From Spirochaetae bacterium HGW-Spirochaetae-3 (GTDB lineage Bacteria > Spirochaetota > Spirochaetia > Treponematales > UBA12059), in the NCBI GenBank assembly GCA_002839315.1, contig PGXV01000007.1:191934-255933 (forward strand): a stretch of 64,000 bases of DNA, given 5' to 3'. The notes under the pieces are model-generated. The model was not told where the DNA came from and made no database searches. It saw only the letters and a program-made list of their open reading frames with translations. Positions 1-49,797 of this stretch are shown here, piece by piece; positions within the stretch are counted from its first letter, which is position 1; every line of letters begins with the position of its first letter. A program made the position numbers and the translations under genes.

Positions 1-118
1 TGCGATAAGCTGTATGGGCATGGCCGCCCTTATACCATGGGCGCGATTCGCGCAACAAGTACGGCGAAGCCGGGCGCCGCTCTTGTTAGGGGCCTCCGTT
101 TCGCGCTACCCTCGGCGC

Positions 119-1711
119 ATGAGCGATGAATCCGAGGCGACCGGCCGTCTCGTCCGCGAGAGCGGCAAGTTGTCCGCGCTGACGATGGCGTCGAGGATCC
201 TCGGGCTGATACGCGATCGCACGAGGGGCGGGCTGATGGGGACGGGCGCCCTCGCCGACGCTTTTACCGTGGCCTTCAGCGTGCCCAACCTATTCCGCCG
301 CCTGTTCGCCGAAGGCTCTATGTCCGTAGCCTTCATCCCGACGGTCAAGGCGTACTTCTCGGAGGGCGACCGCGAGAAGACGGAGGAATTCCTGTCGGCC
401 ACCTTCACCGCCCTGACCCTGGCGGTCTGCGCCGTCGTCGTGGCCGGCGTCGCCGCCTCTCCTCTCCTCGTGCGCCTCTTCGATTCGGAGCCGGTCGAGA
501 CGACGGCGCTGATGCGCCTCATGTTCCCGTTCCTCGCCCTCGTGTCCATCGCCGCGTTCTTCCAGGGCATCCTGAACGCGCTCGGCTCGTTCATGCCCTC
601 GGGATTCGCGCCTATCCTGTTCAACCTGAGCTTCATCTTCGTGCCCATGGCTATAGGTAGTACCATGGCCAATCCGGCGCGGGCCATGGCCGTCGGCGTC
701 GTTATAGGCGGGTTTCTGCAGGCGTTATGCCAGTTGCCGTACGTAATACGGCTGGGCGCCCGATTCCGCTTCGTTTCGCCCAAGAAGGCGTTCTCGAACC
801 CCGGTATGCGGCGCGTCATGTCCTTGATCGCGCCGACGATACTCGGTATGGCAGCCTACGAGGTCAACGGCCTGGTCTCCACGTCGCTGGCGACGAGGGC
901 CGGTACCGGCGCCGCTACCGCGCTCAGCTTCTCCCTGCGGCTACAGGAGCTCGTGCTCGGCGTCTTCGTCGTGTCGGTCGGGACGGTGCTGCTACCCGAG
1001 CTGTCCGGGCTCGCCGCGTCGGCCCGCTGGCGCGAATACCGGGAGCGTCTGACTAGAGCCCTCGAGGCGATAGCGCTCATCACGGTACCGGTCGCCGTAT
1101 TCGCGATATGCGAGCGGATCGATATCGTCGCCCTGCTCTTCAAGACTAAGGAATTCGGGAATGCGTCCGTCGCGCAGACGGCGGGCGCGTTCTTCTTCCA
1201 TATGATCGGGCTTCCGTTCATCGGCGCCAACCGTATCCTGGCCCCGGCTTTCTACTCGCGCGGAAACACGAAGACGCCGGCCTATGCGGGTATCGTCGCG
1301 GTCGCGGTCAACGTCATCGCGGCCTTCGCCCTTCAGCCCGCGATGGGCGGTTCCGGCATAGCCCTGGCCCTATCCATCGCGAGCGCCGTCAACACGGCGG
1401 CGCTGATCATTATGCTGTCCCGCGTCGGCATTGACGGGCTCGGCTCCGCGCTCTCGGCCGTCGCCCTCTACGTCGTCAGGCTGCTCGGGTTCTCGGCCGT
1501 GGCGGCGATTCCGGTGCTGCTGCTCAGGAAGCCTTTCGGGGATCTGTTCGGGGCCGCGCCTTCGGGCCTCGTGGCTTACGGCGTCCCGTTCGCGCTTTCC
1601 GCCGTCGCGTTCGCCGCCGTCGGCGTGGGCTTGCTGGCCGTAACCAAGGATCCTGCGGCGGCATTCCTCGTGTCGTCCCTGCGGAGGAGCGGCAGGGGCC
1701 GTTCCGGCTAG
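119..1711 (+). CDS. murJ: Lipid II flippase MurJ (MviN)
   Basis: Inner-membrane flippase that carries lipid II outward for peptidoglycan synthesis; MOP/MATE superfamily. Seen: the N-terminal run ASRILGLIRDRTRG, then ALADAF and FRRLFAEGSMSVAFIPTV, which is the family signature with its cavity arginines, followed by about 14 hydrophobic segments; 530 residues is the usual family length. The frame is open back to position 14, but those 35 residues are Arg-rich, lack a ribosome-binding site and precede the normal family start, so ATG at 119 is preferred. It is followed at once by the tRNA-Thr promoter. Any upstream operon partner lies outside the window. Confidence 0.93.
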   Translation: MSDESEATGRLVRESGKLSALTMASRILGLIRDRTRGGLMGTGALADAFTVAFSVPNLFRRLFAEGSMSVAFIPTVKAYFSEGDREKTEEFLSATFTALTLAVCAVVVAGVAASPLLVRLFDSEPVETTALMRLMFPFLALVSIAAFFQGILNALGSFMPSGFAPILFNLSFIFVPMAIGSTMANPARAMAVGVVIGGFLQALCQLPYVIRLGARFRFVSPKKAFSNPGMRRVMSLIAPTILGMAAYEVNGLVSTSLATRAGTGAATALSFSLRLQELVLGVFVVSVGTVLLPELSGLAASARWREYRERLTRALEAIALITVPVAVFAICERIDIVALLFKTKEFGNASVAQTAGAFFFHMIGLPFIGANRILAPAFYSRGNTKTPAYAGIVAVAVNVIAAFALQPAMGGSGIALALSIASAVNTAALIIMLSRVGIDGLGSALSAVALYVVRLLGFSAVAAIPVLLLRKPFGDLFGAAPSGLVAYGVPFALSAVAFAAVGVGLLAVTKDPAAAFLVSSLRRSGRGRSG

Positions 1712-1733
1712 GTCGATTACGACGGAATCGGCC

Positions 1734-1762
1734 TTGACAAAGCCGGCGACGGTTGCTACAGT
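1734..1762 (+). promoter_or_regulatory. Sigma-70-type promoter of tRNA-Thr/rpmG
   Basis: TTGACA at 1734-1739, a 17-bp spacer, and TACAGT at 1757-1762. The predicted start is about 1769, 9 nt before the mature tRNA. The sequence after the -10 box is GC-rich (ACCGGCGC), the kind of discriminator found at stringently controlled promoters. The arms GCCGG (1742-1746) and CCGGC (1764-1768) flank the -10 box. Confidence 0.75.
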
Positions 1763-1777
1763 ACCGGCGCTTGTAAC

Positions 1778-1850
1778 GCCCTTGTAGCTCAGTTGGCAGA
1801 GCACATCCATGGTAAGGATGAGGTCATCGGTTCGATTCCGATCGAGGGCT
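1778..1850 (+). tRNA. tRNA-Thr(GGT)
   Basis: 73-nt cloverleaf. Acceptor GCCCTTG (1778-1784) pairs with CGAGGGC (1843-1849) through one G-T wobble. D stem GCTC/GAGC; anticodon stem CATCC/GGATG enclosing loop ATGGTAA with anticodon GGT at 1811-1813; T arm ATCGG-TTCGATT-CCGAT. Discriminator base is T1850. CCA is not encoded. Confidence 0.95.
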
Positions 1851-1864
1851 TTTAGATAAAGCTC

Positions 1865-1919
1865 GGAGGCTGGTCGGCGCGACCGACGCGACGCGTCGTA
1901 CCGGGGCTCCATTTTTTTT
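1865..1919 (+). terminator. Possible terminator/attenuator between tRNA-Thr and rpmG
   Basis: A GC-rich segment with nested complementarity (GGAG...CTCC outer arms, GTCGG/CCGAC and CGACGCG/CGCGTCG inside) runs directly into eight T residues at 1912-1919. The outer stem has mismatches, so partial read-through into rpmG is likely rather than full termination. Confidence 0.5.
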
Positions 1920-1965
1920 CGACGCCCGATCGTGCTGGCGTTAATATTCCGGGAGGGATCCGACC

Positions 1966-2139
1966 ATGGCTGGTAAGAAGCAGACCGTAGAGATCATCGC
2001 TCTTGCGTGCACCGAATGCAAGCGCAGAAATTATACGACGACGAAGAACAGGAAGACCAAGCAGGAGAAGCTTGAGCTTATGAAGTATTGCAAGTGGGAC
2101 CACAAGCATACCCTTCATAAGGAAACGAAGGTAAAGTAG
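1966..2139 (+). CDS. rpmG: 50S ribosomal protein L33
   Basis: 57-residue protein of the large-subunit E-site region. GGGAGGGA stands 7 nt before the ATG. Sequence shows [15 protein letters not shown] and [15 protein letters not shown], the L33 hallmarks. The first zinc pair is intact (C15, C18). The second, normally C-x2-C in the zinc-binding form, reads C42-K-W-D45, so one ligand is Asp. The order rpmG-tRNA-Trp-secE-nusG is the common bacterial arrangement and supports the call; the gene is too short for most ORF cut-offs. Confidence 0.93.
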
Positions 2140-2161
2140 CCTTCGGTTTTCTGGGTGACGC

Positions 2162-2187
2162 CGCGATCCCGCGTTGACGGGATCGCG
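2162..2187 (+). promoter_or_regulatory. Perfect 10-bp stem-loop between rpmG and tRNA-Trp
   Basis: CGCGATCCCG (2162-2171) and CGGGATCGCG (2178-2187) are exact complements around a 6-nt loop. There is no T-run after it, so an RNA processing or stability element freeing tRNA-Trp is more likely than intrinsic termination. A weaker ACCCGG/CCGGGT pair follows at 2194-2222. Confidence 0.6.
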
Positions 2188-2230
2188 TCGTGTACCCGGC
2201 AGGTTCTGGGAGCCTTCCGGGTTCACGATT

Positions 2231-2303
2231 AGGCCAGTAGCTCTAATGGTAGAGCGCCGGTCTCCAAAACCGGATGTTGAGGGTTCGAATCCTTCCTGGC
2301 CTG
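2231..2303 (+). tRNA. tRNA-Trp(CCA)
   Basis: Acceptor AGGCCAG (2231-2237) pairs fully with CTGGCCT (2296-2302); discriminator G2303. Anticodon stem CCGGT/ACCGG encloses loop CTCCAAA, giving anticodon CCA at 2264-2266. T-loop TTCGAAT is normal. Its position just before secE is a conserved bacterial arrangement. Confidence 0.96.
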
Positions 2304-2419
2304 TACATCCGGCCGATAATCGCGAGCCGCGCCGGATGGCGCGGCAGCGCTGTTTACGAGCGATCGGGTAGTGACGCGAACATGTGTTTTCGATTCGATA
2401 CCGCCTTCAAGGAGCCTTC

Positions 2420-2599
2420 ATGAAAAAGATAGTCCAGTTCTTCAAGGATAGTGTCGGCGAGCTCAAGAAGGTCGTATGGCCTTCCAGGGATAGCGTTATC
2501 GCTTCGACCAAGGTGGTGCTCCTCTCCACCATCGCAGTAGCGCTATTCCTCGGCGTCGTGGACTTCCTTCTGGTCCGCGGCATCGACCTGCTGTTCTGA
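2420..2599 (+). CDS. secE: Preprotein translocase subunit SecE
   Basis: 59-residue single-span SecE of the short bacterial type; clamps SecY in the Sec translocon. The amphipathic segment FFKDSVGELKKVVWPSRDSV (residues about 6-25) is the family signature, followed by one membrane helix. AAGGAG lies 6 nt before ATG 2420; the in-frame ATG 12 codons upstream lacks a ribosome-binding site and is rejected. Thirteen nucleotides separate it from nusG. Confidence 0.95.
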   Translation: MKKIVQFFKDSVGELKKVVWPSRDSVIASTKVVLLSTIAVALFLGVVDFLLVRGIDLLF

Positions 2600-2612
2600 G
2601 CCGGTCGTAGTA

Positions 2613-3170
2613 ATGGCAAAGTCCTGGTACGTCCTGCACGTCTACTCCGGCTATGAGGCCAAGATCGAGCGGACCATTCGCATGCTCATCGCCAATAACG
2701 ATCTCGATGGCGCCGTCGTCACGGATATCAAGATCCCGAGCGAGGAAGTCGTGGACGTCAAGGACGGGAAGCGGCGGACGACCCAGCGCAAGATGCTCCC
2801 CGGTTATATTCTCGTCGAGATGGACCTGCCTCAGGATAACTGGAAGGCTACCTGTTCCGCTATCCGTAAGATTACCGGCGTTACCGGCTTCGTCGGCGCT
2901 ACCATGCACCACAAGCCCGCCCCGATATCGGGCGAGGAGGCTCGTCATATCCTGCAGCGCGCCGGCGAGATCAAGGGCGACCGGCCGGCCAAGTCGAGGC
3001 AGAGTTTCTCCGTCGGGGAGCAGGTCAAGATCATCGAGGGGCCGTTCGACTCGTTTACCGGAACGATCGAGGAAGTCAGTACCGACAAGAACAAGCTACG
3101 GGTCATGGTCGGCATCTTCGGGCGGGCGACGCCCGTAGAGGTCGATATGCTCCAGGTAGAGAAGGTTTAA
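2613..3170 (+). CDS. nusG: Transcription termination/antitermination factor NusG
   Basis: 185-residue NusG, which binds the RNA polymerase clamp helices and couples transcription with Rho or the ribosome. Seen: NGN domain from WYVLHVYSGYE to about residue 105, including MLPGYILVEM, then a linker and a C-terminal KOW domain (GEQVKIIEGPFDSFTGTI). Length is normal and no spirochaetal insertion is evident. The start has only a weak ribosome-binding site, consistent with translational coupling to secE just upstream. Confidence 0.97.
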   Translation: MAKSWYVLHVYSGYEAKIERTIRMLIANNDLDGAVVTDIKIPSEEVVDVKDGKRRTTQRKMLPGYILVEMDLPQDNWKATCSAIRKITGVTGFVGATMHHKPAPISGEEARHILQRAGEIKGDRPAKSRQSFSVGEQVKIIEGPFDSFTGTIEEVSTDKNKLRVMVGIFGRATPVEVDMLQVEKV

Positions 3171-3444
3171 TCAAGGCAAGCGGCGCCCTCGCGGCGCTTC
3201 TCATAGGTTCGGGTTACAAGCAGGGTCGCGCGGATACGCGCGGCGCGCCCGGTGGGGCGCGGAACCGGTCATGCCGGGGACCCGCTCCGTATGATGGGAG
3301 CCTTCCGTACCAAGAACGTCGCCTTTATCGGCTGCGTTTACCCGACGGAAGGCGCTATCCCCGGCTACCGATCCCCTTTTCGGAGGGGACGACCGGGGCC
3401 CGGACGCCGAAAGGCGCCACGGGACACCACGAAAGGAGTCGTTT
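3171..3444 (+). promoter_or_regulatory. rplK leader region with several stem-loops
   Basis: No convincing gene. Stem-loops seen: GCGCC/GGCGC at 3183-3197; a 9-bp exact pair GCCTTCCGT (3300-3308)/ACGGAAGGC (3345-3353) with a 36-nt loop; TCCCC/GGGGA at 3372-3389; and CGCC-GAAA-GGCG at 3405-3416, a GNRA-capped hairpin 28 nt before the rplK start. This is the place where L1 autoregulates rplK-rplA in other bacteria, but I cannot show an L1 site here. No TTGACA-like box was found. Confidence 0.5.
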
Positions 3445-3876
3445 ATGGCTAAGAAAGTGGTCACCGCGATCATCAAGTTGCAGTGCCCCGCAGGCAAGGC
3501 TACGCCCGCGCCGCCCGTCGGACCAGCTCTCGGTCCTCATGGCGTCAGCGCCCCGCAGTTTTGTCAGCAGTTCAACGACAGGACCAAGGCCATGGAGCAG
3601 GGGCTCACCATTCCCTGCGTCATCACGGTCTACAAGGACAAGTCCTTCACCTTCATCACGAAGACGCCGCCGGCGTCCGTGCTCATCAAGAAGGCTATCG
3701 GGCTGGACAAGGGTTCTCCCATTCCCCACAAGCAGAAGGTCGGCAAGATCCCTCACGCCAAGGTGACCGAGATCGCCAAGCTCAAGCTCAAGGATCTCTC
3801 GGCCAACGACGTAGAGGCCGCCGAGCGCATCATAGCCGGAACTGCCCGCGCCATGGGCGTCGAAGTGGAGTGGTAA
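3445..3876 (+). CDS. rplK: 50S ribosomal protein L11
   Basis: 143-residue L11, which binds 23S rRNA helices 43/44 in the GTPase-associated centre and is needed for RelA activation. The N-terminal proline-rich run [14 protein letters not shown] and the C-terminal rRNA-binding domain ending [15 protein letters not shown] are diagnostic. AAAGGAG sits 6 nt before the ATG. The next gene, rplA, begins 3 nt after the stop, so the pair is co-transcribed and probably coupled. Confidence 0.98.
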
Positions 3877-3879
3877 GCG

Positions 3880-4563
3880 ATGAAGCACGGTAAGAAATAC
3901 AGGGAAGTGGCCAAGAAGGTCGACGCGGAAAAGTCCTATGACGTCTCCGAGGCCTGCGCGCTCCTCAAGGAGCTGAAGGTAGCCAAGTTCGACGAGACGG
4001 TCGAGGTCCATATCAGGCTTAACCTTAAGAAGAGCCAGACGGTACGCGACACGGTCGTGCTTCCTCACCAGTTCAAGGCCGAGAAGAAGGTACTCGTCTT
4101 CTGTAAGCCCGAGAAGGAGAAGGAAGCCCAGGAGGCCGGAGCCACCTACTTCGGTAGCGACGAGCTGATCGAGAAGATAAAGGGCGGATGGATGGACTTC
4201 GATATCGCGGTGGCGACGCCCGATATGATGAAGGACGTCGGCCGTCTCGGTATGGTTCTCGGGCGCAAGGGCCTCATGCCTAACCCCAAGACCGGTACCG
4301 TTACCTTCGACATCAAGGCCGCCATCGGCGAGCTGAAGAAGGGCCGTACCGAGTTCAGGTCCGACAAGTCCAATATCATCCATATCGCCGTCGGCAAGAT
4401 CTCGATGGAGGCGGCGCAGATCGCCGGCAACCTCGAGGCCCTGCTCGGCGAGGTCAATCGCAAGCGCCCGTCCGACGTCAAGGGAGAGTTCGTCCAGTCC
4501 GTTTACCTGGCCGGGACCATGACCCCTAGCGTCAAGGTCGCCACGGCGAAGGCAGAGAGGTAA
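3880..4563 (+). CDS. rplA: 50S ribosomal protein L1
   Basis: 227-residue L1 of the mobile stalk at the E site, and in many bacteria the translational repressor of its own operon. MKHGKKYREVAKKVD at the N-terminus, then the two-domain core with LGRKGLMPNPKTGTV, GRTEFRSDKSNIIHIAVGK and YLAGTMTPSVKV. Standard length. Only 3 nt follow its stop before rplJ. Confidence 0.98.
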   Translation: MKHGKKYREVAKKVDAEKSYDVSEACALLKELKVAKFDETVEVHIRLNLKKSQTVRDTVVLPHQFKAEKKVLVFCKPEKEKEAQEAGATYFGSDELIEKIKGGWMDFDIAVATPDMMKDVGRLGMVLGRKGLMPNPKTGTVTFDIKAAIGELKKGRTEFRSDKSNIIHIAVGKISMEAAQIAGNLEALLGEVNRKRPSDVKGEFVQSVYLAGTMTPSVKVATAKAER

Positions 4564-4566
4564 GAT

Positions 4567-5103
4567 ATGGCCCTACGCGCAAAGAAGACTCAGCCCAGCA
4601 AGGTCGAGGCCATCGAGGCCGTCGGCGCCAAGATCGCCGCCGCTACCGACTTTATCTTCACCGATTACCGCGGACTGACCGTGGAGCAGATAACGGCCCT
4701 CAGGGACCAGCTCCGCGCGAAGAACGCCGAGTATCATATCGTCAAGAATAACTTCGCCCGGATCGCGTTCGAGCGTAGCGAATCCCCCGACGTCAGCGGG
4801 CTTCTCGTCGGCCCTACCGCCGTAGCGTTTACCCAGGCCGATTCCAACGAGGTCGCCAAGATTATCCTCGACTTCGGCAAGGAGACGTCCGTCAAGCTCA
4901 AGGGCGGCATCGTCGACAAGTTCTTCTATGACAAGGTGCAGATGGAGGCTTTCTCCAAGCTGCCGGGCAAGAGCCAGCTCCTGTCCATGCTCATGAGCGC
5001 CATGAACGCGCCGCTCCAGAACCTCGTGTACGCCATGAACGGCATTCCCACGAAGCTCGTGCGGACGTTGCAGGCGGTCGCCGATCAGAAGAGCGCCCAG
5101 TAA
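4567..5103 (+). CDS. rplJ: 50S ribosomal protein L10
   Basis: 178-residue L10, the base of the L7/L12 stalk. N-terminal domain with FTDYRGLTVEQITALRDQLR and the C-terminal helix that holds L12 dimers (about residues 140-178). Purine-rich GAGAGGTAAG precedes the ATG. The stop is followed by 131 nt holding two hairpins before rplL, which may help set the higher L12 dosage. Confidence 0.97.
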   Translation: MALRAKKTQPSKVEAIEAVGAKIAAATDFIFTDYRGLTVEQITALRDQLRAKNAEYHIVKNNFARIAFERSESPDVSGLLVGPTAVAFTQADSNEVAKIILDFGKETSVKLKGGIVDKFFYDKVQMEAFSKLPGKSQLLSMLMSAMNAPLQNLVYAMNGIPTKLVRTLQAVADQKSAQ

Positions 5104-5166
5104 CGCTCGGACCCAGTAATTCGCGGCGTTCAGGCTTCGGTAGCTGCCGTACCTGTTCGCCTTGAT

Positions 5167-5205
5167 GCCTTCCGTATTCGGGAGGCGCTTTTCCCTAGGA
5201 AAAGC
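5167..5205 (+). promoter_or_regulatory. Two adjacent hairpins between rplJ and rplL
   Basis: First hairpin 5167-5186: GCCTTCC/GGGAGGC with one G-T pair. Second, immediately adjacent, 5187-5205: GCTTTTCC-CTA-GGAAAAGC, exact 8-bp stem, followed by AATCGTTTT. The second resembles a weak intrinsic terminator or a processing site. It lies about 30 nt before the rplL start. Confidence 0.6.
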
Positions 5206-5234
5206 AATCGTTTTAGCCATAAGGAGAAGATAAT

Positions 5235-5618
5235 ATGGCAGCACTTACCTCCGATCAGATCCTGGACGCCATCGCCTCGATGACCGTCCTCGAGGTTTCC
5301 GCTCTCGTCAAGGCCATGGAAGAGAAGTTCGGCGTCACCGCCGCCGCTCCCGTAGCCATGGTAGCCGGCGGAGCCGCCGCCGCCGCCCCCGCAGAAGAGC
5401 AGACCGAGTTCACCGTCATCCTCAAGGGCGGCGTTCCCGCCGACAAGAAGATTTCCATCATCAAGGAAGTCCGCACGATCACCGGCCTGGGCCTCAAGGA
5501 GGCCAAGGATCTCGTCGAGGCCGGCGAGAAGCCCCTCAAGGAAGGCGTGCCCAAGGACGAGGCCGAGAAGATCAAGAAAGCGATCACCGAAGCCGGCGGC
5601 GCCGTCGAGATAAAGTAA
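5235..5618 (+). CDS. rplL: 50S ribosomal protein L7/L12
   Basis: 127-residue stalk protein that recruits translational GTPases. N-terminal dimerisation domain (residues 1-34), an Ala/Pro-rich hinge (about 35-55), and the C-terminal factor-binding domain with [20 protein letters not shown] and a terminal [18 protein letters not shown] lies 7 nt before the ATG. Present in four or more copies per ribosome, so the hairpin-rich spacers on both sides are worth noting. Confidence 0.98.
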
Positions 5619-5676
5619 GGATCTTGAAGAAAGCGTCGAAACAACGCTACTCCCGCCACGGCTTCGCGCCGCGGTT

Positions 5677-5709
5677 AGAGGTACCGGGCGCGCAGCGCCC
5701 GGTACCTCT
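5677..5709 (+). promoter_or_regulatory. Perfect 14-bp stem-loop between rplL and rpoB
   Basis: AGAGGTACCGGGCG (5677-5690) and CGCCCGGTACCTCT (5696-5709) are exact complements with the 5-nt loop CGCAG. No T-run follows. It occupies the position of the E. coli rplL-rpoB attenuator and RNase III site that lowers rpoBC expression relative to L12, so a similar role is inferred. Confidence 0.7.
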
Positions 5710-5762
5710 TCGCGCCTTACGCACGAACATCGCGCGCGGCGCTCCTGGTGAAGCATATAGTC

Positions 5763-5789
5763 GCGGCTCCTTCCCGAAGGAAGCGCCGC
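5763..5789 (+). promoter_or_regulatory. Second stem-loop in the rpoB leader
   Basis: GCGGC (5763-5767) pairs with GCCGC (5785-5789), enclosing a further CCTTC/GAAGG pairing; GTTTACC follows. A short secondary hairpin about 55 nt before the rpoB start, possibly part of the same attenuation region as the 14-bp hairpin upstream. Confidence 0.4.
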
Positions 5790-5845
5790 GTTTACCATAG
5801 ATTCAGTTAAAAACGCGTACACCGGAACCACGAGAGGGGGTAACG

Positions 5846-9340
<3,495 letters not shown>

Positions 9341-9360
9341 CCTATTTTCGAGTCGGAACA

Positions 9361-9459
9361 AAGAGGATAAGAGGATAAGAGGAAGGAAAGAGGATGAGCG
9401 GAGGGACGATACCGATGGATGCGTCTTCTCTTTCTCGTCTCGTCTCCTCTTATTCTCTT
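9361..9459 (+). repeat. Homopurine/homopyrimidine inverted repeat between rpoB and rpoC
   Basis: The left arm (9361-9394) is almost pure purine, built from AAGAGGAT-like units. The right arm (9426-9459) is almost pure pyrimidine and is its complement: of 34 facing positions about 28 pair, counting G-U. The loop is 31 nt. It would form a long RNA hairpin in the 172-nt rpoB-rpoC spacer. Asymmetric purine strands with mirror character can also form triplex DNA. Most bacteria have a short, unstructured spacer here. Confidence 0.7.
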
Positions 9460-9512
9460 CGTTCGTCCTATGTATACGACGCGTATACAGCCCGCTTTAA
9501 GGGGGAGACTGC

Positions 9513-13883
<4,371 letters not shown>

Positions 13884-13902
13884 TATCCGGGCGGTCAGGA
13901 TG

Positions 13903-13964
13903 CCGAGGCCCCTCGGAGACCGATTGACACGGGGGGCCGAGGAATTCTATTGTCTATCCTCGGC
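13903..13964 (+). promoter_or_regulatory. Promoter of rpsL-rpsG embedded in CCGAGG inverted repeats
   Basis: TTGACA at 13924-13929, 18-bp spacer, TATTGT at 13948-13953. Four copies of one half-site surround it: CCGAGG (13903-13908), CCTCGG (13911-13916), GCCGAGG (13936-13942) and CCTCGGC (13958-13964). The last two form an exact 7-bp inverted repeat centred on the -10 box; the first two form a small hairpin that could help end rpoC transcription. Alternative pairing between the two hairpins is possible. Confidence 0.6.
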
Positions 13965-14060
13965 GCGTACTACTGACGCGTCGATTAATTCGCAATTCGT
14001 GTACCAATGAAATATGCCGGGCGATGCTGAAGTCCGGACACAACAGGAGACCACGGTTTA

Positions 14061-14435
14061 ATGCCTACGATCAACCAGCTTATCCGGATGGGCCGAAAAC
14101 AGTCCATCTGGAAGACCAAGAGCCCGGCGCTCAACGAGTGCCCTCAGAAGCGCGGCGTTTGCACCCGCGTCATGACGGTCACCCCGAAGAAGCCGAATTC
14201 GGCCCTCCGGAAGGTCGCCCGCGTACGCCTGTCCCACGGCATCGAGGTGACGGCTTACATTCCGGGCGTCGGCCACAATCTGCAGGAGCACTCCGTAGTG
14301 CTGTTGCGCGGCGGACGCGTCAAGGATCTTCCGGGCGTTCGATACCATATCATTCGCGGCGCCAAGGATACCCTGGGCGTGGCGGACCGCAAGCAGGCGC
14401 GCTCCAAGTACGGCGCCAAGCGGCCTAAGGCTTAA
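14061..14435 (+). CDS. rpsL: 30S ribosomal protein S12
   Basis: 124-residue S12 of the decoding centre. The loops [11 protein letters not shown] (K43) and [13 protein letters not shown] (K88, D89, P91) carry the residues of streptomycin-sensitive S12, including the aspartate that is methylthiolated in other bacteria. CAGGAGACC precedes the ATG. Twelve nucleotides separate it from rpsG. fusA, usually next in this operon, is absent. Confidence 0.98.
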
Positions 14436-14447
14436 GGGGGAACGATC

Positions 14448-14918
14448 ATGGGACGAAAAAAGAAGTCCGAGGATCGCGGTCACCAGCCCGATGCCAGATA
14501 TAACAGCGTCACGATAACCAAATTCATCTGCAGGATGATGTGGCAGGGCAAGAAGTCCACCGTGACGAGCATCATGTACGACTCGATGGGGCAGCTCCAG
14601 GAAAAAGCCGGAGTCCCGGCCCTCGAGGCGTTCATGAAGGCCATGGATAACGTAAAGCCGATGGTCGAGGTCAAGTCCCGACGCGTAGGCGGCGCCACCT
14701 ATCAGGTGCCTAACGAAATCCGCGATACGCGCCGCGAGGCTCTCGCGATGCGCTGGGTCATAGCCGCCGCGCGCAAGCGCTCCGGTAAGTCGATGGCGGA
14801 CCGCTTGGCGGCCGAGCTTACCGACGCCTTCAACGGCACCGGTACCGCGGTCAAGAAGCGCGAGGATACGCACAGGATGGCGGAAGCCAATAAGGCGTTC
14901 GCTCACTACCGCTGGTAA
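14448..14918 (+). CDS. rpsG: 30S ribosomal protein S7
   Basis: 156-residue S7, the primary assembly protein of the 30S head. Contains [36 protein letters not shown] and a C-terminal [20 protein letters not shown], all diagnostic. GGGGGAACG precedes the ATG. In E. coli S7 represses this operon; no equivalent site could be recognised in the 12-nt spacer. Confidence 0.98.
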
Positions 14919-14944
14919 GGCGGGAAGGCGCGGGGCTAGCCCCG

Positions 14945-14982
14945 GCGCGGCCCTTGATAAGGCCGCGCTAGCCTATTATACT
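14945..14982 (+). promoter_or_regulatory. Promoter of tuf overlapping an 8-bp inverted repeat
   Basis: TTGATA at 14954-14959, a 17-bp spacer and TATACT at 14977-14982 form a good sigma-70-type promoter 62 nt before tuf. GCGCGGCC (14945-14952) and GGCCGCGC (14961-14968) are exact complements that straddle the -35 box; in RNA from rpsG they would form a hairpin that could reduce read-through. Confidence 0.7.
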
Positions 14983-15043
14983 GACGGGACCTGCGCTCGG
15001 CGCCGGTTCCCTTTTTTCGTAATACCAGGCTAGGAGGATACCA

Positions 15044-16234
15044 ATGGCGAAAGAGAAGTTCGCGCGCACCAAGCCGCACATGAACGTCGGTACGATCGGT
15101 CATATCGACCACGGCAAGACGACGCTCAGCGCAGCTATAACCATGTACTGCGGCAAGAAGTTCGGCGACAAGGTCATGAAATATGACGAGATCGATAACG
15201 CTCCCGAAGAGAAGGCGCGCGGTATAACGATCAATACCAGGCACCTCGAGTATCAGTCGGACAAGCGCCACTACGCGCACATCGACTGCCCGGGCCACGC
15301 CGACTATATCAAGAACATGATCACCGGAGCCGCCCAGATGGACGGCGCCATCCTGGTCGTGTCCGCTCCCGATTCCGTTATGCCCCAGACCCGCGAGCAC
15401 GTGCTGCTGGCCCGTCAGGTCGGCGTTCCGTCGATCATCGTATTCCTCAACAAGATCGACCTCCTGGACGACCCCGAGCTCGTCGAGCTCGTGGAGCAGG
15501 AAGTCCGCGACCTCCTCAACTTCCAGAAGTTCCCCGGGGACGAAATCCCCATCATCAAGGGTTCCGCGTTCAAGGCGATGTCCGAGCCCGACAACGCCGA
15601 GGCGACCGCTTGTCTCGAGGAGCTCCTCGAGGCGATGGACAGCTACTTCCAGGATCCCGTACGCCTTACCGACAAGCCCTTCCTGATGCCGATCGAGGAC
15701 GTGTTCTCGATCTCCGGCCGTGGAACGGTCGTTACCGGCGCCATCAACCGCGGTATCGTCCACGTAAACGATGAAGTCGAGATCGTAGGCATCAAGCCGA
15801 CGAAGAAGACCGTCGTTACCGGCGTAGAGATGTTCAACAAGCTCCTCGACGAAGGTCAGGCCGGCGACAACATCGGAGCTCTGCTCCGCGGCGTCGACAA
15901 GAAGGAAGTGGAGCGCGGACAGGTCCTCGCCAAGCCGGGTTCCATCACCCCGCACACCAAGTTCAAGGGCCAGATCTACTGCCTGTCGCAGACCGAGGGC
16001 GGTCGTCACAGCCCGTTCTTCGCCGGATATAGGCCCCAGTTCTATTTCCGCACGACCGATATCACCGGTACCGTCACCCTGCCCGAGGGCAAAGAAATGG
16101 TCATGCCCGGAGACAACACCGAGATCCTCGGCGAGCTGATCTACCCGATCGCCATGGAGAAGGGCCTCAAGTTCGCTATCCGCGAAGGCGGCCGCACCGT
16201 AGCTTCCGGCCAGGTCGTCGACATCCTGGAGTAA
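15044..16234 (+). CDS. tuf: Elongation factor Tu
   Basis: 396-residue EF-Tu, which delivers aminoacyl-tRNA to the ribosome. GTPase motifs: G1 GHIDHGKT, G2 region RGITINT, G3 DCPGH, G4 NKID, G5 GSAFK; then beta-barrel domains 2 ([10 protein letters not shown]) and 3 ([15 protein letters not shown]). The blocks [19 protein letters not shown] and [13 protein letters not shown] match treponemal EF-Tu as I remember it. AGGAGG stands 7 nt before the ATG. It has its own promoter and terminator, so it is probably a single-gene unit. Confidence 0.99.
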
Positions 16235-16254
16235 TCAGCTAATCCGCTTATTCG

Positions 16255-16282
16255 AGGCCGTCCTTTCGGGGACGGCCTTTTT
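16255..16282 (+). terminator. Intrinsic terminator of tuf
   Basis: AGGCCGTCC (16255-16263) and GGACGGCCT (16270-16278) are exact complements with a 6-nt loop, followed by a run of T to 16282. Strong Rho-independent terminator. Confidence 0.93.
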
Positions 16283-16320
16283 GTTAACCCGTAGCTTATT
16301 GATTCCTCATATAAATAGAG

Positions 16321-16349
16321 TTGCGCTGGCGTAAAATCGGCACTACACT
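16321..16349 (+). promoter_or_regulatory. Possible promoter of ugpBAE
   Basis: TTGCGC at 16321-16326, 17-bp spacer, TACACT at 16344-16349, 59 nt before the ugpB start. The -35 box is weak. The AT-rich stretch CATATAAATAG just upstream gives an alternative -10. Confidence 0.4.
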
Positions 16350-16408
16350 AAGCTTCCACTAGAAATAGCCCGTTACGGGGACATGAACTCGAGATTAAGG
16401 AGGCACGT

Positions 16409-17716
16409 ATGAAAAGACTGACGCTTGCATTACTCATCGTCAGCATGGTCGCCACTGCGGCTTTTGCTGAACCCATCAGTATCGATTTCTGGCATGCTAT
16501 GACAGGAAAGAACGGCGATACGGTCCAGGCTATCTGCGACAAGTTCAATGCCACCCAGACTCTGTATAAAGTCGTCCCGGTCTATAAGGGATCGTATAGC
16601 GACACGATGAACGCCGGTATCGCCGCGTTCCGTGCCAAGTCGGCCCCGGCCATCGTACAGGTGTACGAGGTCGGTACCGCGACGATGATGTCCGCCAAGG
16701 GCGCCGTCAAGCCGGTCTACCAGCTCATGAAAGAGACGAAGCAGAAATTCGATCCCAAGATATACATACCGACCATTACCAGCTATTACTCGACGTCTAA
16801 GGGCGAGATGCTCTCGATGCCGTTTAATTCCTCTACCTCGGTCATGTACTACAACAAGGACGCGTTCCGCAAGGCCGGCCTCGATCCCGAGAAGCCCCCG
16901 GTAACCTGGCCCGAGTTCTTCGAAGTAGCCAGGAAGCTCAAGGCTTCCGGCATGGAAGGCGGCTTCTCGACGAACTGGATCTCCTGGATACAGCTCGAGA
17001 ATTTCTCGGCGTGGCATAATCAGCCCTTCGGCACGAAGTCGAACGGTTTCGACGGCCTCGATACCGAGCTCGTCTTCAATACGCCGCTTACCGTCAAGCA
17101 CTTCGAGACGATCTACAAGCTGAGCCAGGAAAAGGTGTTCATCTACGGCGGACGCGAGAACAAGGCTAACCCGCTGTTCTCCTCCGGCCAGGTCGGTATG
17201 CACTTCGAGTCCATCGGCGGCTACGCCAACTTCAAGAATACCTGCAAGTTCGAATTCGGCGTCGCCCGCCTGCCGTACTATCCCGAGGTCGCGGACGCTC
17301 CCCAGAACTCCATCATCGGCGGCGCGAGCCTCTGGGTATTCAACGGAAAGTCGAAGGACGAGTACAAGGGCGTCGCTCAGTTCTTCTCGTTCCTTTCCAG
17401 CCCTGAGATCCAGGCTTTCTGGCACCAGAACACCGGCTACCTGCCTATAACCATGGCCGCCTATGAGCTGACCAAGGCGCAGGGATTCTATACCACCAAC
17501 CCCGGTCCCGAGGTCGCGATCAAGCAGCTGCTGAACAAGGCTCCGACGAAGAACTCGATGGGTATCCGCTTCGGTAACTTCAATATCATCCGCGAGATAG
17601 AGGACCAGACCTGGGAAGATATCCTCGCCGGGAAGATATCCGTGAAAGCCGGTTTGGAGAAGATGGTGCGTGAAGGGAACGCCAAGCTCAGGGATTTCGA
17701 GCGCTTGAATAAGTAG
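16409..17716 (+). CDS. ugpB: ABC transporter substrate-binding protein, UgpB type
   Basis: 435-residue periplasmic binding protein (family 1 solute-binding proteins, CUT1). Signal peptide in residues 1-20 (MKRLTLALLIVSMVATAAFA), then IDFWHAMTGKNGDTVQAICDKFN, MPFNSSTSVMYYNKDAFRKAG and GGASLWVFNG, as in glycerol-3-phosphate/glycerophosphocholine binders. I infer sn-glycerol-3-phosphate or a phosphodiester as ligand, but a sugar is possible. TAAGGAGG lies 7 nt before the ATG. Followed by a hairpin and two permeases; no ATPase gene is linked, so a shared MsmK/UgpC-like subunit encoded elsewhere is expected. Confidence 0.85.
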   Translation: MKRLTLALLIVSMVATAAFAEPISIDFWHAMTGKNGDTVQAICDKFNATQTLYKVVPVYKGSYSDTMNAGIAAFRAKSAPAIVQVYEVGTATMMSAKGAVKPVYQLMKETKQKFDPKIYIPTITSYYSTSKGEMLSMPFNSSTSVMYYNKDAFRKAGLDPEKPPVTWPEFFEVARKLKASGMEGGFSTNWISWIQLENFSAWHNQPFGTKSNGFDGLDTELVFNTPLTVKHFETIYKLSQEKVFIYGGRENKANPLFSSGQVGMHFESIGGYANFKNTCKFEFGVARLPYYPEVADAPQNSIIGGASLWVFNGKSKDEYKGVAQFFSFLSSPEIQAFWHQNTGYLPITMAAYELTKAQGFYTTNPGPEVAIKQLLNKAPTKNSMGIRFGNFNIIREIEDQTWEDILAGKISVKAGLEKMVREGNAKLRDFERLNK

Positions 17717-17734
17717 AGTTCTACGGGTTTCGTT

Positions 17735-17758
17735 CGGGGCCGGCTTCGTCCGGCCCCG
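17735..17758 (+). terminator. Attenuator between ugpB and ugpA
   Basis: CGGGGCCGG/CCGGCCCCG, an exact 9-bp stem with loop CTTCGT, followed by TTATCTTTATTT. Partial termination or 3'-end protection here would yield more binding protein than permease, a common arrangement for such operons. Confidence 0.8.
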
Positions 17759-17780
17759 TTATCTTTATTTAGGATGCTAC

Positions 17781-18671
17781 ATGGCTCAACAATACGAGTT
17801 CAAGGCGAAATATCTACCGTATCTGCTGGTATTACCTCAGATGCTTATCGTCTTCGTCTTCTTCTTCTGGCCGTCGTTCCAGGGCGTATGGCAGTCGTTC
17901 TTCCTCCAGGATCCCTTCGGCGGCCGGGTAATCTTCGTCGGCCTCGAGAACTATACCAGGCTCTTCACCGACCCGGCGTCGTCGTACGGCGAGTCTTTCA
18001 GGGTTTCCGTGGCGTTCGCAGTCTGCGTGGCGGCGCTGTCGATGATCATCGCATTGTTCCTCGCTACGCAGGCCAACAAGAAGATCAAATTCTCCTCGTT
18101 CTACAAGACCATGATGATATGGCCGTACGCCGTCGCGACGATGGTAGCCGGCGTTCTCTGGCTCTTCATGTTCAATCCGAACGTAGGCGTCATAGCCTGG
18201 TTCCTCAAGCATCGCCTCGGCATCGAGTGGCAGCACCTGCTCAACTCGGGTCAGGCGTTCCTGCTCGTCACGATGGCGGCCAGCTGGAAGCAGATATCCT
18301 ATAACTTCGTATTCTTCCTCGCGGGACTGCAGAGCGTACCCGTCGATCTCGTTGAAGCGGCCGCGATAGACGGAGCCGGCCCGACGAGGCGTTTCTGGAA
18401 GATTATATTCCCGTTGTTATCCCCGACCACGTTCTATCTGCTCGTGATGAACCTGGTCTACGGTTTCTTCGAGACGTTCCCTATCATCCATCAGGTAACC
18501 GCGGGCGGTCCGGGGAAGTCTACGAGCATCCTGGTATACAAGGTCTGGCGCGACGGGGTGATCAATCTCGATCTCGGAGGGTCGTCGGCTCAATCGGTCA
18601 TACTGATGATCATGGTTATTGGCCTGACCGTCGTACAGTTCCGCTTTATCGAGCGGCGCGTGCATTATTGA
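17781..18671 (+). CDS. ugpA: ABC transporter permease, UgpA type
   Basis: 296-residue inner-membrane permease of the CUT1 class with six predicted helices. The cytoplasmic EAA loop reads VEAAAIDGAGPTRRFWKIIF (about residues 190-210), which docks the ATPase. The stretch from the first helix, LVLPQMLIVFVFFFWP, is typical of UgpA/MalF-like subunits. Weak ribosome-binding site; 10 nt separate it from ugpE. Confidence 0.87.
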   Translation: MAQQYEFKAKYLPYLLVLPQMLIVFVFFFWPSFQGVWQSFFLQDPFGGRVIFVGLENYTRLFTDPASSYGESFRVSVAFAVCVAALSMIIALFLATQANKKIKFSSFYKTMMIWPYAVATMVAGVLWLFMFNPNVGVIAWFLKHRLGIEWQHLLNSGQAFLLVTMAASWKQISYNFVFFLAGLQSVPVDLVEAAAIDGAGPTRRFWKIIFPLLSPTTFYLLVMNLVYGFFETFPIIHQVTAGGPGKSTSILVYKVWRDGVINLDLGGSSAQSVILMIMVIGLTVVQFRFIERRVHY

Positions 18672-18681
18672 GGAGCGATCG

Positions 18682-19527
18682 ATGACCGAACACAACGCCG
18701 TTCGCAGGGCTACGCCGCATATATACCTTTGGATAGCGATACTTATCCTTTTATTCCCGATATTGCTCGTTTTTATAGCCTCGACCCATACGAGCGCGGA
18801 GATCCTCTCGGCGCCGATGCCCCTGACGCCGGGCACCCATATGGCGGAGAACTATACTCGCGCCGTCCTCGAGGGTAACAAGAACCTCGGAGCCTCGGCG
18901 CTGATGATGATGAAGAATTCCCTGATCATGGCCCTCGGTATTGCCTTCGGGAAGATCATCGTGTCGTTGCTTGCCTCGTACGCCATAGTATTCTTCAACT
19001 TCAAGCTCCGTAATTTCTGTTTCTGGGCTATCTTCATCACGTTGATGCTACCGGTAGAGGTACGCATCATGCCGACGTACAAGGTGATATCGGACCTGGG
19101 GTTGCTCAATTCGTACGCGGGCCTGATTCTTCCGATGATCGTGTCCGCGACCGCGGTATTCCTGTTCAGGCAGTTCTTCATGCAGATACCGCGAGAGATC
19201 GCCGAGGCGTCCCAGATAGACGGCGCCAGTCCGATGCAGTTCTTCTGGAGGATACTGTTACCGATGACGCGTACGCCGATAGCGGCGATGTTCGTCATCC
19301 AGTTTATCTATGGCTGGAATCAGTACCTATGGCCTTTGCTTATTACGACTAAGCAGGAGTATTATACGATACTGATTGGAATTAACCGTATGCTCTCGGG
19401 CGCGGACGTGCAGATAGAGTGGCAGATAGTAATGGCCACGACCCTTCTGGCGATGATCCCCCCGGCTCTGGTCGTCGTGTTGATGCAGAAACAGTTTGTC
19501 GCAGGCATGACCGACCGCGAAAAATAG
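18682..19527 (+). CDS. ugpE: ABC transporter permease, UgpE type
   Basis: 281-residue partner permease with six predicted helices. EAA loop with AEASQIDGASPMQFFWRI and the conserved YGWNQYLWPL segment typical of UgpE. GAGGAGCG precedes the ATG. Last gene of the transporter unit; it is followed by a 16-bp inverted repeat and then by the promoter of the S10 operon. Confidence 0.88.
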   Translation: MTEHNAVRRATPHIYLWIAILILLFPILLVFIASTHTSAEILSAPMPLTPGTHMAENYTRAVLEGNKNLGASALMMMKNSLIMALGIAFGKIIVSLLASYAIVFFNFKLRNFCFWAIFITLMLPVEVRIMPTYKVISDLGLLNSYAGLILPMIVSATAVFLFRQFFMQIPREIAEASQIDGASPMQFFWRILLPMTRTPIAAMFVIQFIYGWNQYLWPLLITTKQEYYTILIGINRMLSGADVQIEWQIVMATTLLAMIPPALVVVLMQKQFVAGMTDREK

Positions 19528-19549
19528 CCTTTCAGGCGAAGGGTTTGAA

Positions 19550-19586
19550 ACAGAGACGCGGAGGATCGTATTCTCTGCGTCTCTGT
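19550..19586 (+). terminator. 16-bp stem-loop after ugpE
   Basis: Left arm 19550-19565 (ACAGAGACGCGGAGGA) pairs with right arm 19571-19586 (TTCTCTGCGTCTCTGT) through 16 pairs including two G-U; loop TCGTA. There is no T-run, so it is probably a Rho-assisted or mRNA-end-protecting hairpin that separates the transporter from the ribosomal operon. Confidence 0.6.
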
Positions 19587-19625
19587 GGATTAGAATACCT
19601 ATTCTATTCGAATCACATGGTAGGG

Positions 19626-19661
19626 TTGACATTAATTCCCGGGCAAGGCATAATCCCCGGG
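19626..19661 (+). promoter_or_regulatory. Promoter of the S10 ribosomal operon
   Basis: TTGACA at 19626-19631, a 17-bp spacer and CATAAT at 19649-19654. CCCGGG at 19638-19643 and again at 19656-19661 makes GC-rich inverted arms on both sides of the -10 box, and the discriminator CCCCGGGC is GC-rich. Predicted start is near 19661, leaving a leader of about 165 nt to rpsJ. Confidence 0.82.
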
Positions 19662-19826
19662 CTATTCGTCTGGGCGCAGTGGCGTTCGCGAAGGACGAGT
19701 AGTCGCCGATAGCGTGTTACGCATCGCGCGTCGCGAGGTTCCACGACCTCGAGCGTCCGGGTTCATGGGCACGCCCGCCAGGGTACGGCCCGAGGAATGT
19801 CGGCGCAAGCGATCTTTGGAGGACAC
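19662..19826 (+). promoter_or_regulatory. S10 operon leader
   Basis: About 165 nt with no supported gene. A small hairpin CGAGGT/ACCTCG lies at about 19735-19752. Gammaproteobacterial L4-type leaders have a defined hairpin set that I do not recognise here. AGGAGG-like TGGAGGAC precedes rpsJ. Confidence 0.35.
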
Positions 19827-20132
19827 ATGAAAGACAGGATCCGTGTCAGGCTCAGGGGTTTCGACGTTCGTCTTATAGACGATAGCGCGAAATCCATCGT
19901 TACAACCGTTCAGAGGGCAGGGGCGAAGGTCTCGGGACCGATTCCGCTACCCACGAAGATTAGTAAGTATACGGTGCTGAGATCTCCTCACGTGCACAAG
20001 AAGGCGCGAGAGCAGTTCGAAATGCGCACGCATAAGAGGCTGATCGATATTCTGAGCCCGACTCCCGATGTCATGGATGCGCTTATGAAGCTCGAATTGC
20101 CCGCAGGTGTGGATGTCGAGATAAAGCAGTAA
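19827..20132 (+). CDS. rpsJ: 30S ribosomal protein S10 (NusE)
   Basis: 101-residue S10, also the NusE partner of NusB/NusG. Start [20 protein letters not shown]; signature [23 protein letters not shown] (shown here only in part: [20 protein letters not shown]). GGAGGAC lies 6 nt before ATG 19827; an in-frame ATG ten codons earlier lacks a ribosome-binding site. First gene of the S10 operon. Confidence 0.98.
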
Positions 20133-49739: not shown

Positions 49740-49797
49740 GAAAAACTTAAATAGTGCAAAATGTTGCGGAAATATGCAAGATATTGCGTGAATTCGC

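Follow-up and report, generated by a model that had tools for sequence, protein, structure and literature searches.

The hairpin in the rpoB-rpoC spacer is one copy of a scattered family of hairpin elements that are stable in position but fast-changing in sequence, a relationship that the first-pass annotation of this DNA had missed. The window analysed here (the whole stretch of 64,000 nucleotides) comes from a genome of 3.88 Mb in 18 contigs, whose rpoB matches Spirochaetota MAGs best. Elements of the same type were dispersed through this genome, and at five sites they shared their place with elements of congeners while the repeat unit of the arms was exchanged at that same site. GxxExxY genes were observed inside arms of another type, and in one distant spirochaete a GxxExxY element was mobile and was accompanied by a short deletion copy.

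The hairpin between rpoB and rpoC

The two polymerase genes that the first-pass annotation placed on either side of the hairpin are named rpoB and rpoC by NCBIfam (Table 1). A purine arm facing a pyrimidine arm with about 28 pairs had been described, and our ungapped arms (9356-9392 and 9428-9464; 37 nt, 78% complementary) gave about 29 Watson-Crick pairs, with 40 pairs predicted in the RNA hairpin of the arms 9356-9404 and 9412-9464. Repeat units were likewise recovered, as 2.9 tandem copies of AAGAGGAT at 9361-9383. The description of the arm as homopurine stood only in part, as 46 of 52 positions at 9360-9411 are purines, but every AAGAGGAT unit contains one T and the longest uninterrupted purine run is 18 nt. 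The hairpin arms are the sole purine-rich/pyrimidine-rich tract pair of the window (24-mers no more than 120 nt apart).

Table 1. Coordinates of the hairpin, its neighbours and a second hairpin within the window.
Feature	Position	Strand	Remarks
rpoB	5846..9340	+	NCBIfam name; stop codon 9338-9340
rpoC	9513..13883	+	NCBIfam name; ATG at 9513
rpoB-rpoC spacer with element	9341..9512	+	172 nt
5' purine-rich arm, AAGAGGAT units at 9361-9383	9356..9404	+	
Apical loop of predicted hairpin	9405..9411	+	RNA fold, arm duplex
3' pyrimidine-rich arm	9412..9464	+	arm duplex
Small open frame, 40 aa	9394..9516	+	starts in 5' arm, crosses 3' arm; TGA overlaps rpoC ATG
AGGGGGAG, likely rpoC ribosome binding site	9500..9507	+	by eye; outside hairpin
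Second, minimal hairpin, ACAGAGACGCGGAGGAT / ATTCTCTGCGTCTCTGT	19550..19586	+	other octamer type

Folded as RNA, 9355-9470 reached -49.3 kcal/mol (z -3.47), and none of 200 dinucleotide shuffles did as well; as single-stranded DNA the same segment had a z of -2.69, with three of 200 shuffles as good. Because the base composition of purine and pyrimidine tracts favours pairing in any case, we also shuffled within the arms, and the arm duplex (-47.3 kcal/mol) was equalled by 7 of 2000 such shuffles, which had a mean of -33.4 and a standard deviation of 4.2. The rpoC start lies 48 nt past the end of the stem. The element is MITE-like in being short, with inverted ends, several copies per genome and no recognised gene inside, the 40-aa open frame being all that the window copy contains, and no target site duplication was visible by eye around this copy. 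A search of window positions 1-20000 against Rfam returned only two tRNAs above the gathering score and left the hairpin unmatched, and eight element loci gave only sub-threshold microRNA models (9 matches).

Several smaller features were also observed in the window. A small perfect palindrome, GTATACG-ACG-CGTATAC, occupies 9472-9488 between the hairpin and rpoC. The minimal hairpin at 19550-19586 is near-perfect, lies directly past a gene end (fold z -6.35) and is of the CAGAGACGCGGAG type, so that both octamer types are present in the window. A tandem repeat of two AT-rich copies, with a period of 20 nt, was found at 49749-49788.

The same spacer in related genomes

From 104 loci containing both genes we obtained 62 distinct rpoB-rpoC spacers. 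Fifteen of these had octamer-type hairpins, as judged by eye, and 24 were no longer than 21 nt. Seven of the eight genus genomes had the long spacer, while that of G005 measures 9 nt and would look the same whether an element was lost or never gained. The unit in this spacer was AAGAGGAT in the window, CACGGAGR in G001, G003 and G006, and CACAGAGA or mixed in G004 and G007; G002 (L010) kept a CACGGAG stretch with another repeat inserted in it.

Units were in register across a six-genome spacer alignment, in which the AGGGGGAG stretch was invariant. The consensus fold of the six sequences had 32 predicted pairs, 27 of them belonging to the hairpin. Compensatory changes in sister genomes, which the first-pass annotation had named as a check, were partly borne out: 11 of the 27 hairpin pairs had changes at both positions that preserved pairing, but 11 of the 27 were broken or gapped in one or more of the aligned sequences, and covariation contributed little (-2.35 kcal/mol). 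Arms were also swapped among 14 of the 15 octamer-type spacers (that of G002, L010, was excluded, and arm length was unmatched). The spacer's own 3' arm was the best partner in seven of the 14, including the window (-47.3 vs a median of -34.3), and the better partners in the seven misses were mostly longer CACRGAG-type arms. A hairpin of different sequence is maintained in the congeners' spacers, which supports a predicted RNA-level hairpin in the rpoBC message.

Stable hairpins of quite different kind were observed in four further rpoB-rpoC spacers (L029, L051, L115, L065), and the site therefore seems permissive for hairpins generally.

Dispersed copies in the genome and genus

We found 12 matches to AGAGGATAAGAGGA with at most one mismatch, at nine places in the window's own genome, compared with 3 for the reversed-pattern control. 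Both arms were visible at six of these places (rpoBC, C17:115620, C17:120392, C7:8036, C13:177007 and C16:115436) and one arm only at three (C7:13931, C2:182791 and the kam copy C8:31422), while an extra copy on C10 (site A) fell outside the pattern. The rpoBC hairpin is not unique, as AAGAGGAT-type arms occur at no fewer than eight other places in the genome, i.e. at least eight besides rpoBC. Both types were present in congeners, with CACRGAGRCACRGAG against AGAGGATAAGAGGA matches numbering 76 vs 6 in G003, 31 vs 13 in G001 and 1 vs 12 in the own genome, where CACRGAGRCACRGAG was counted exact and AGAGGATAAGAGGA with one mismatch; the reversed-pattern control for CACRGAGRCACRGAG also matches tandem arrays and is a poor control. 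Copies at rpoBC, kam and sites A, B and C are probably transcribed, since their flanking genes appear by eye to be co-directional.

Exchange of unit type at orthologous sites

Six orthologous sites were compared across the genus, sites A and B having been picked from G003 elements and the remaining ones from own-genome elements. At five of the six (rpoBC, kam, A, C and D) the own arm was of the AAGAGGAT type and those of congeners were of the CACGGAG or CACAGAG type, such that unit type tracked the genome and not the locus. The own genome had AAGAGGAT hairpins at sites A, C and D, where CACGGAG-type hairpins were observed in G003, G006 and/or G004; site A was empty in G005. The kam locus has a lysine 2,3-aminomutase gene upstream and a KamB-like gene (below its cut-off) downstream. 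A single AAGAGGAT arm was found there in the own genome, and GxxExxY genes in G002, G003, G004 and G006, three of the four lying between CACGGAG or CACAGAG arms and that of G002 having the 5' arm only. Between G003 and G006 (84-93% identical by locus pair) the unit type differed at one site and presence at another.

At site B a different, palindromic repeat (GGGGGAAGTCTCCCCCTCGCTACGAAGG and kin) was present in the own genome and in G002 and G004 (L300, L286 and L287). In these genomes it has been inserted into such elements or replaces them, the L010 spacer being another example.

GxxExxY genes between inverted arms

Among 149 genus loci we observed 43 CACRGAG arm pairs, 38 of which span 230 bp or less; a count that also took in loci from outside the genus gave 51 pairs. 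Of the five longer pairs, three contained GxxExxY genes, another consisted of two elements flanking a flagellar-type gene, and the last had a low-complexity frame. The three GxxExxY-bearing pairs are the kam locus of G003, G004 and G006 and count as a single orthologous site, not as separate insertions. The three AAGAGGAT arm pairs of the genus, all of them short, enclosed no gene, and the window's genome had no match to PF13366 or TIGR04256.

A wider set of GxxExxY genes was scored for inverted arms within 250 nt of the gene (score of at least 13). Arms were found for 10 of 26 rows from relatives (in which L176 and L180 represent the same gene, and which include eight rows from G026 for an apparently different, longer protein), 13 of 25 loci from the phylum (of 30, five with cut flanks being left out; L242 is the relatives' L163) and 3 of 8 plasmid records. 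This was more frequent than in controls: none of 400 places in rpoB-type coding loci had such arms, and in genus stretches, a fairer control, the figures were 14 of 1000 places and 7 of 600 open frames of 100-160 codons. The remaining 12 phylum loci were under the arm threshold, L236 and L240 passed it with no obvious tandem units, and the arms of L162 and L163 were 148 and 217 nt from the gene. In the plasmid set, L393 may belong to two neighbouring elements, as its inverted repeat is pyrimidine-first. On the Bacteroides, Bernardetia and Sphingomonas plasmids the GxxExxY gene lies between same-strand genes.

Eight aligned GxxExxY proteins conserve D69, E79-x-K81, Q93 and Y97, which we take to resemble the RecB/Cas4 nuclease pattern. 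Pfam assigned PDDEXK_3 to the protein at 1.7e-42 and Cas4 only at 0.21, GxxExxY being PD-(D/E)XK nuclease-like. Proteins of this name are annotated in several phyla, and no role is stated for them in the passages of the literature we found that name them.

Genes of PF05635 (four-helix, 23S IVS protein) were also observed near inverted arms in the relatives, with 4 of 9 loci scoring at least 13 (L185, L187, L188, L190) and three of these four having units of about 7 nt (GGTGAGG, GTAGCAG, GTGGACA). These loci may be an element class parallel to GxxExxY.

A mobile element in a distant spirochaete

The GxxExxY hairpin element is mobile in the distant spirochaete G176. Ten GxxExxY matches were observed in this genome, seven were retrieved, and the five with CTGAC ends were tabulated. 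These five elements (482-500 bp) are pairwise 90-97% identical, lie in different places and have ends like CTGACATCTACCCACA / TGTGGGTAGAAGTCAG, and their flanking 9-mers agree at 9, 8, 7, 5 and 3 of 9 positions. A 260-bp copy without most of the gene (L376) has the flanks AATATGACG / CATATGACG, which agree at 8 of 9 by eye, so that four of six copies have near-matching 9-bp flanks. Outside this tabulation, a degraded copy on C5 has a CTGAC-type end, and L318/L319 is a larger duplication without CTGAC ends.

The deletion copy provides a route by which short gene-less hairpins can arise, albeit in a distant genome and with other ends. The 9-bp duplications were seen in the G176 element only, and since its outer ends (CTGAC..GTCAG) were absent from CACGGAG and AAGAGGAT elements, movement in G176 may depend on them.

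Discussion

We judge it somewhat probable that the rpoBC hairpin is related to GxxExxY-type hairpin elements as a short form lacking the gene, that it is kept in the operon mRNA and that RNase III cuts it there. The family would be built of two inverted arms around a short insert, each arm beginning as a tandem array of a purine-rich unit of about 8 nt, and its long copies in relatives, with other units, would carry the GxxExxY gene between the arms. The rpoBC copy has inverted arms of tandem 8-10-nt purine-rich units and no GxxExxY gene; the gene is absent from both the copy and the genome, and we therefore presume a gene-less relative and not a full member. Grouping the AAGAGGAT type with the GxxExxY-carrying elements would thus rest on a link of position and structure. 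The element would have entered the spacer as mobile DNA. Once transcribed, its stem may be an RNase III target whose cleavage separates the rpoB message from that of rpoC, with rpoC presumably translated from its own site beyond the stem. Such cutting would be the most likely effect on the rpoBC mRNA, because the stem is long, the genome contains an RNase III gene, and substrates of the enzyme have been reported in NEMIS, IVS and the rplL-rpoB region of E. coli.

An intercistronic hairpin repeat is in itself a known kind of element. REPs have the RAYT transposase as partner, and a REP with RAYT is a tetranucleotide-tagged palindrome. The present family resembles REP/REPIN as dispersed extragenic palindromes (PMC3733652 and PMC3116915), REPs measuring 20-40 bp, and differs in a partner that looks nuclease-like and is not a RAYT transposase. 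Like NEMIS/Correia and ERIC repeats, which are MITE-like, it is about 100-200 bp long with inverted ends and would give long stem-loop transcripts, and NEMIS/Correia RNA is described as cut by RNase III in passages of PMC2229807 and PMC10969869. Unlike in NEMIS and ERIC, its tandem octamer arms vary between species at the same site, its related long forms carry GxxExxY, and the window copy has no visible target duplication. The 23S rRNA IVS with S23p is also a hairpin element with inverted ends, some IVS having one small ORF, and is excised from RNA by RNase III (passages of PMC4990558); the window element differs in lying in an mRNA spacer, and PF05635, the IVS protein family, had no match in the window's genome. 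The rplL-rpoB intergenic region of E. coli is an RNase III substrate in the same operon at another junction, and no dispersed element is described there in the passage of PMC2777011. In the literature searched we found neither tandem-unit arms, fixed-site unit exchange and a GxxExxY long form nor a match to the exact octamer strings, and the family seems little described.

That the hairpin serves the host as a regulatory RNA structure in the rpoBC operon, selected in place and only secondarily like the dispersed copies, is in our view unlikely. The long spacer kept in seven of eight genus genomes (in G002 with another repeat inside) and the two-sided changes that maintain pairing speak for it, but the spacer is only 9 nt in G005 and no longer than 21 nt in 24 of the 62 distinct cases, equivalent hairpins occur at other loci, and unit type follows the genome at five sites. 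We find it still more doubtful that the element is a translational-coupling cassette, as an alternative or an addition, in which the purine arm provides a Shine-Dalgarno-like GGAG/GAGG followed by a small ORF whose ribosomes open the 3' arm and stop at the TGA overlapping the rpoC ATG. The frame with this TGA is open for at least 40 codons in 13 of the 15 octamer-type spacers, against none for the rpoC frame and one (L014) for the third frame, counts that are not independent because the spacer sequences are related, and in seven of the 13 (L006, L012, L007, L008, L011, L015, L049) its most distant start codon is 40-43 codons upstream. However, stops are rare in pyrimidine-rich arms whatever the frame, and the rpoC frame is closed by a shared stop near the rpoC start. 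In L009 the frame continues through rpoB (507 codons), like chance frames in GC-rich DNA, while it is closed in L014 and L022, and the ATGA overlap is absent in L019 and L021.

The strong stem and strand asymmetry might also suit an intrinsic terminator or a triplex (H-DNA) element, the latter proposed by the first-pass annotation, but both are very improbable: no terminator-like match (stem plus T-run) was found on the + strand at 9000-9800, and the mirror symmetry of the tract is no better than shuffle level (664 of 1000 shuffles reach it), with a T interrupting each AAGAGGAT unit. Chance pairing of two simple-sequence tracts, which composition does favour (the shuffle mean of -33.4 kcal/mol), can be dismissed almost entirely on the 7 of 2000 within-arm shuffles, the copies elsewhere in the genome and the congeners' own paired arms in this spacer.

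Returning to the rpoBC hairpin as a gene-less relative of GxxExxY elements, we offer as a speculation of low probability that GxxExxY is a minimal RecB/Cas4-like nuclease acting on the paired arms, with break repair copying arm sequence between elements. If so, the elements of a genome would drift together, each site being overwritten in turn, and this would account for the occurrence, at orthologous sites, of AAGAGGAT arms in one species and CACGGAG arms in another. Such elements would form a homing-like hairpin class that also rewrites spacer sequence in essential operons. That GxxExxY lies close to inverted arms of tandem units, and that one genome has mobile copies with target duplications, gives this protein a testable job, and arm-type exchange at fixed positions would amount to bacterial concerted evolution of short repeats, touching the RNA polymerase operon.
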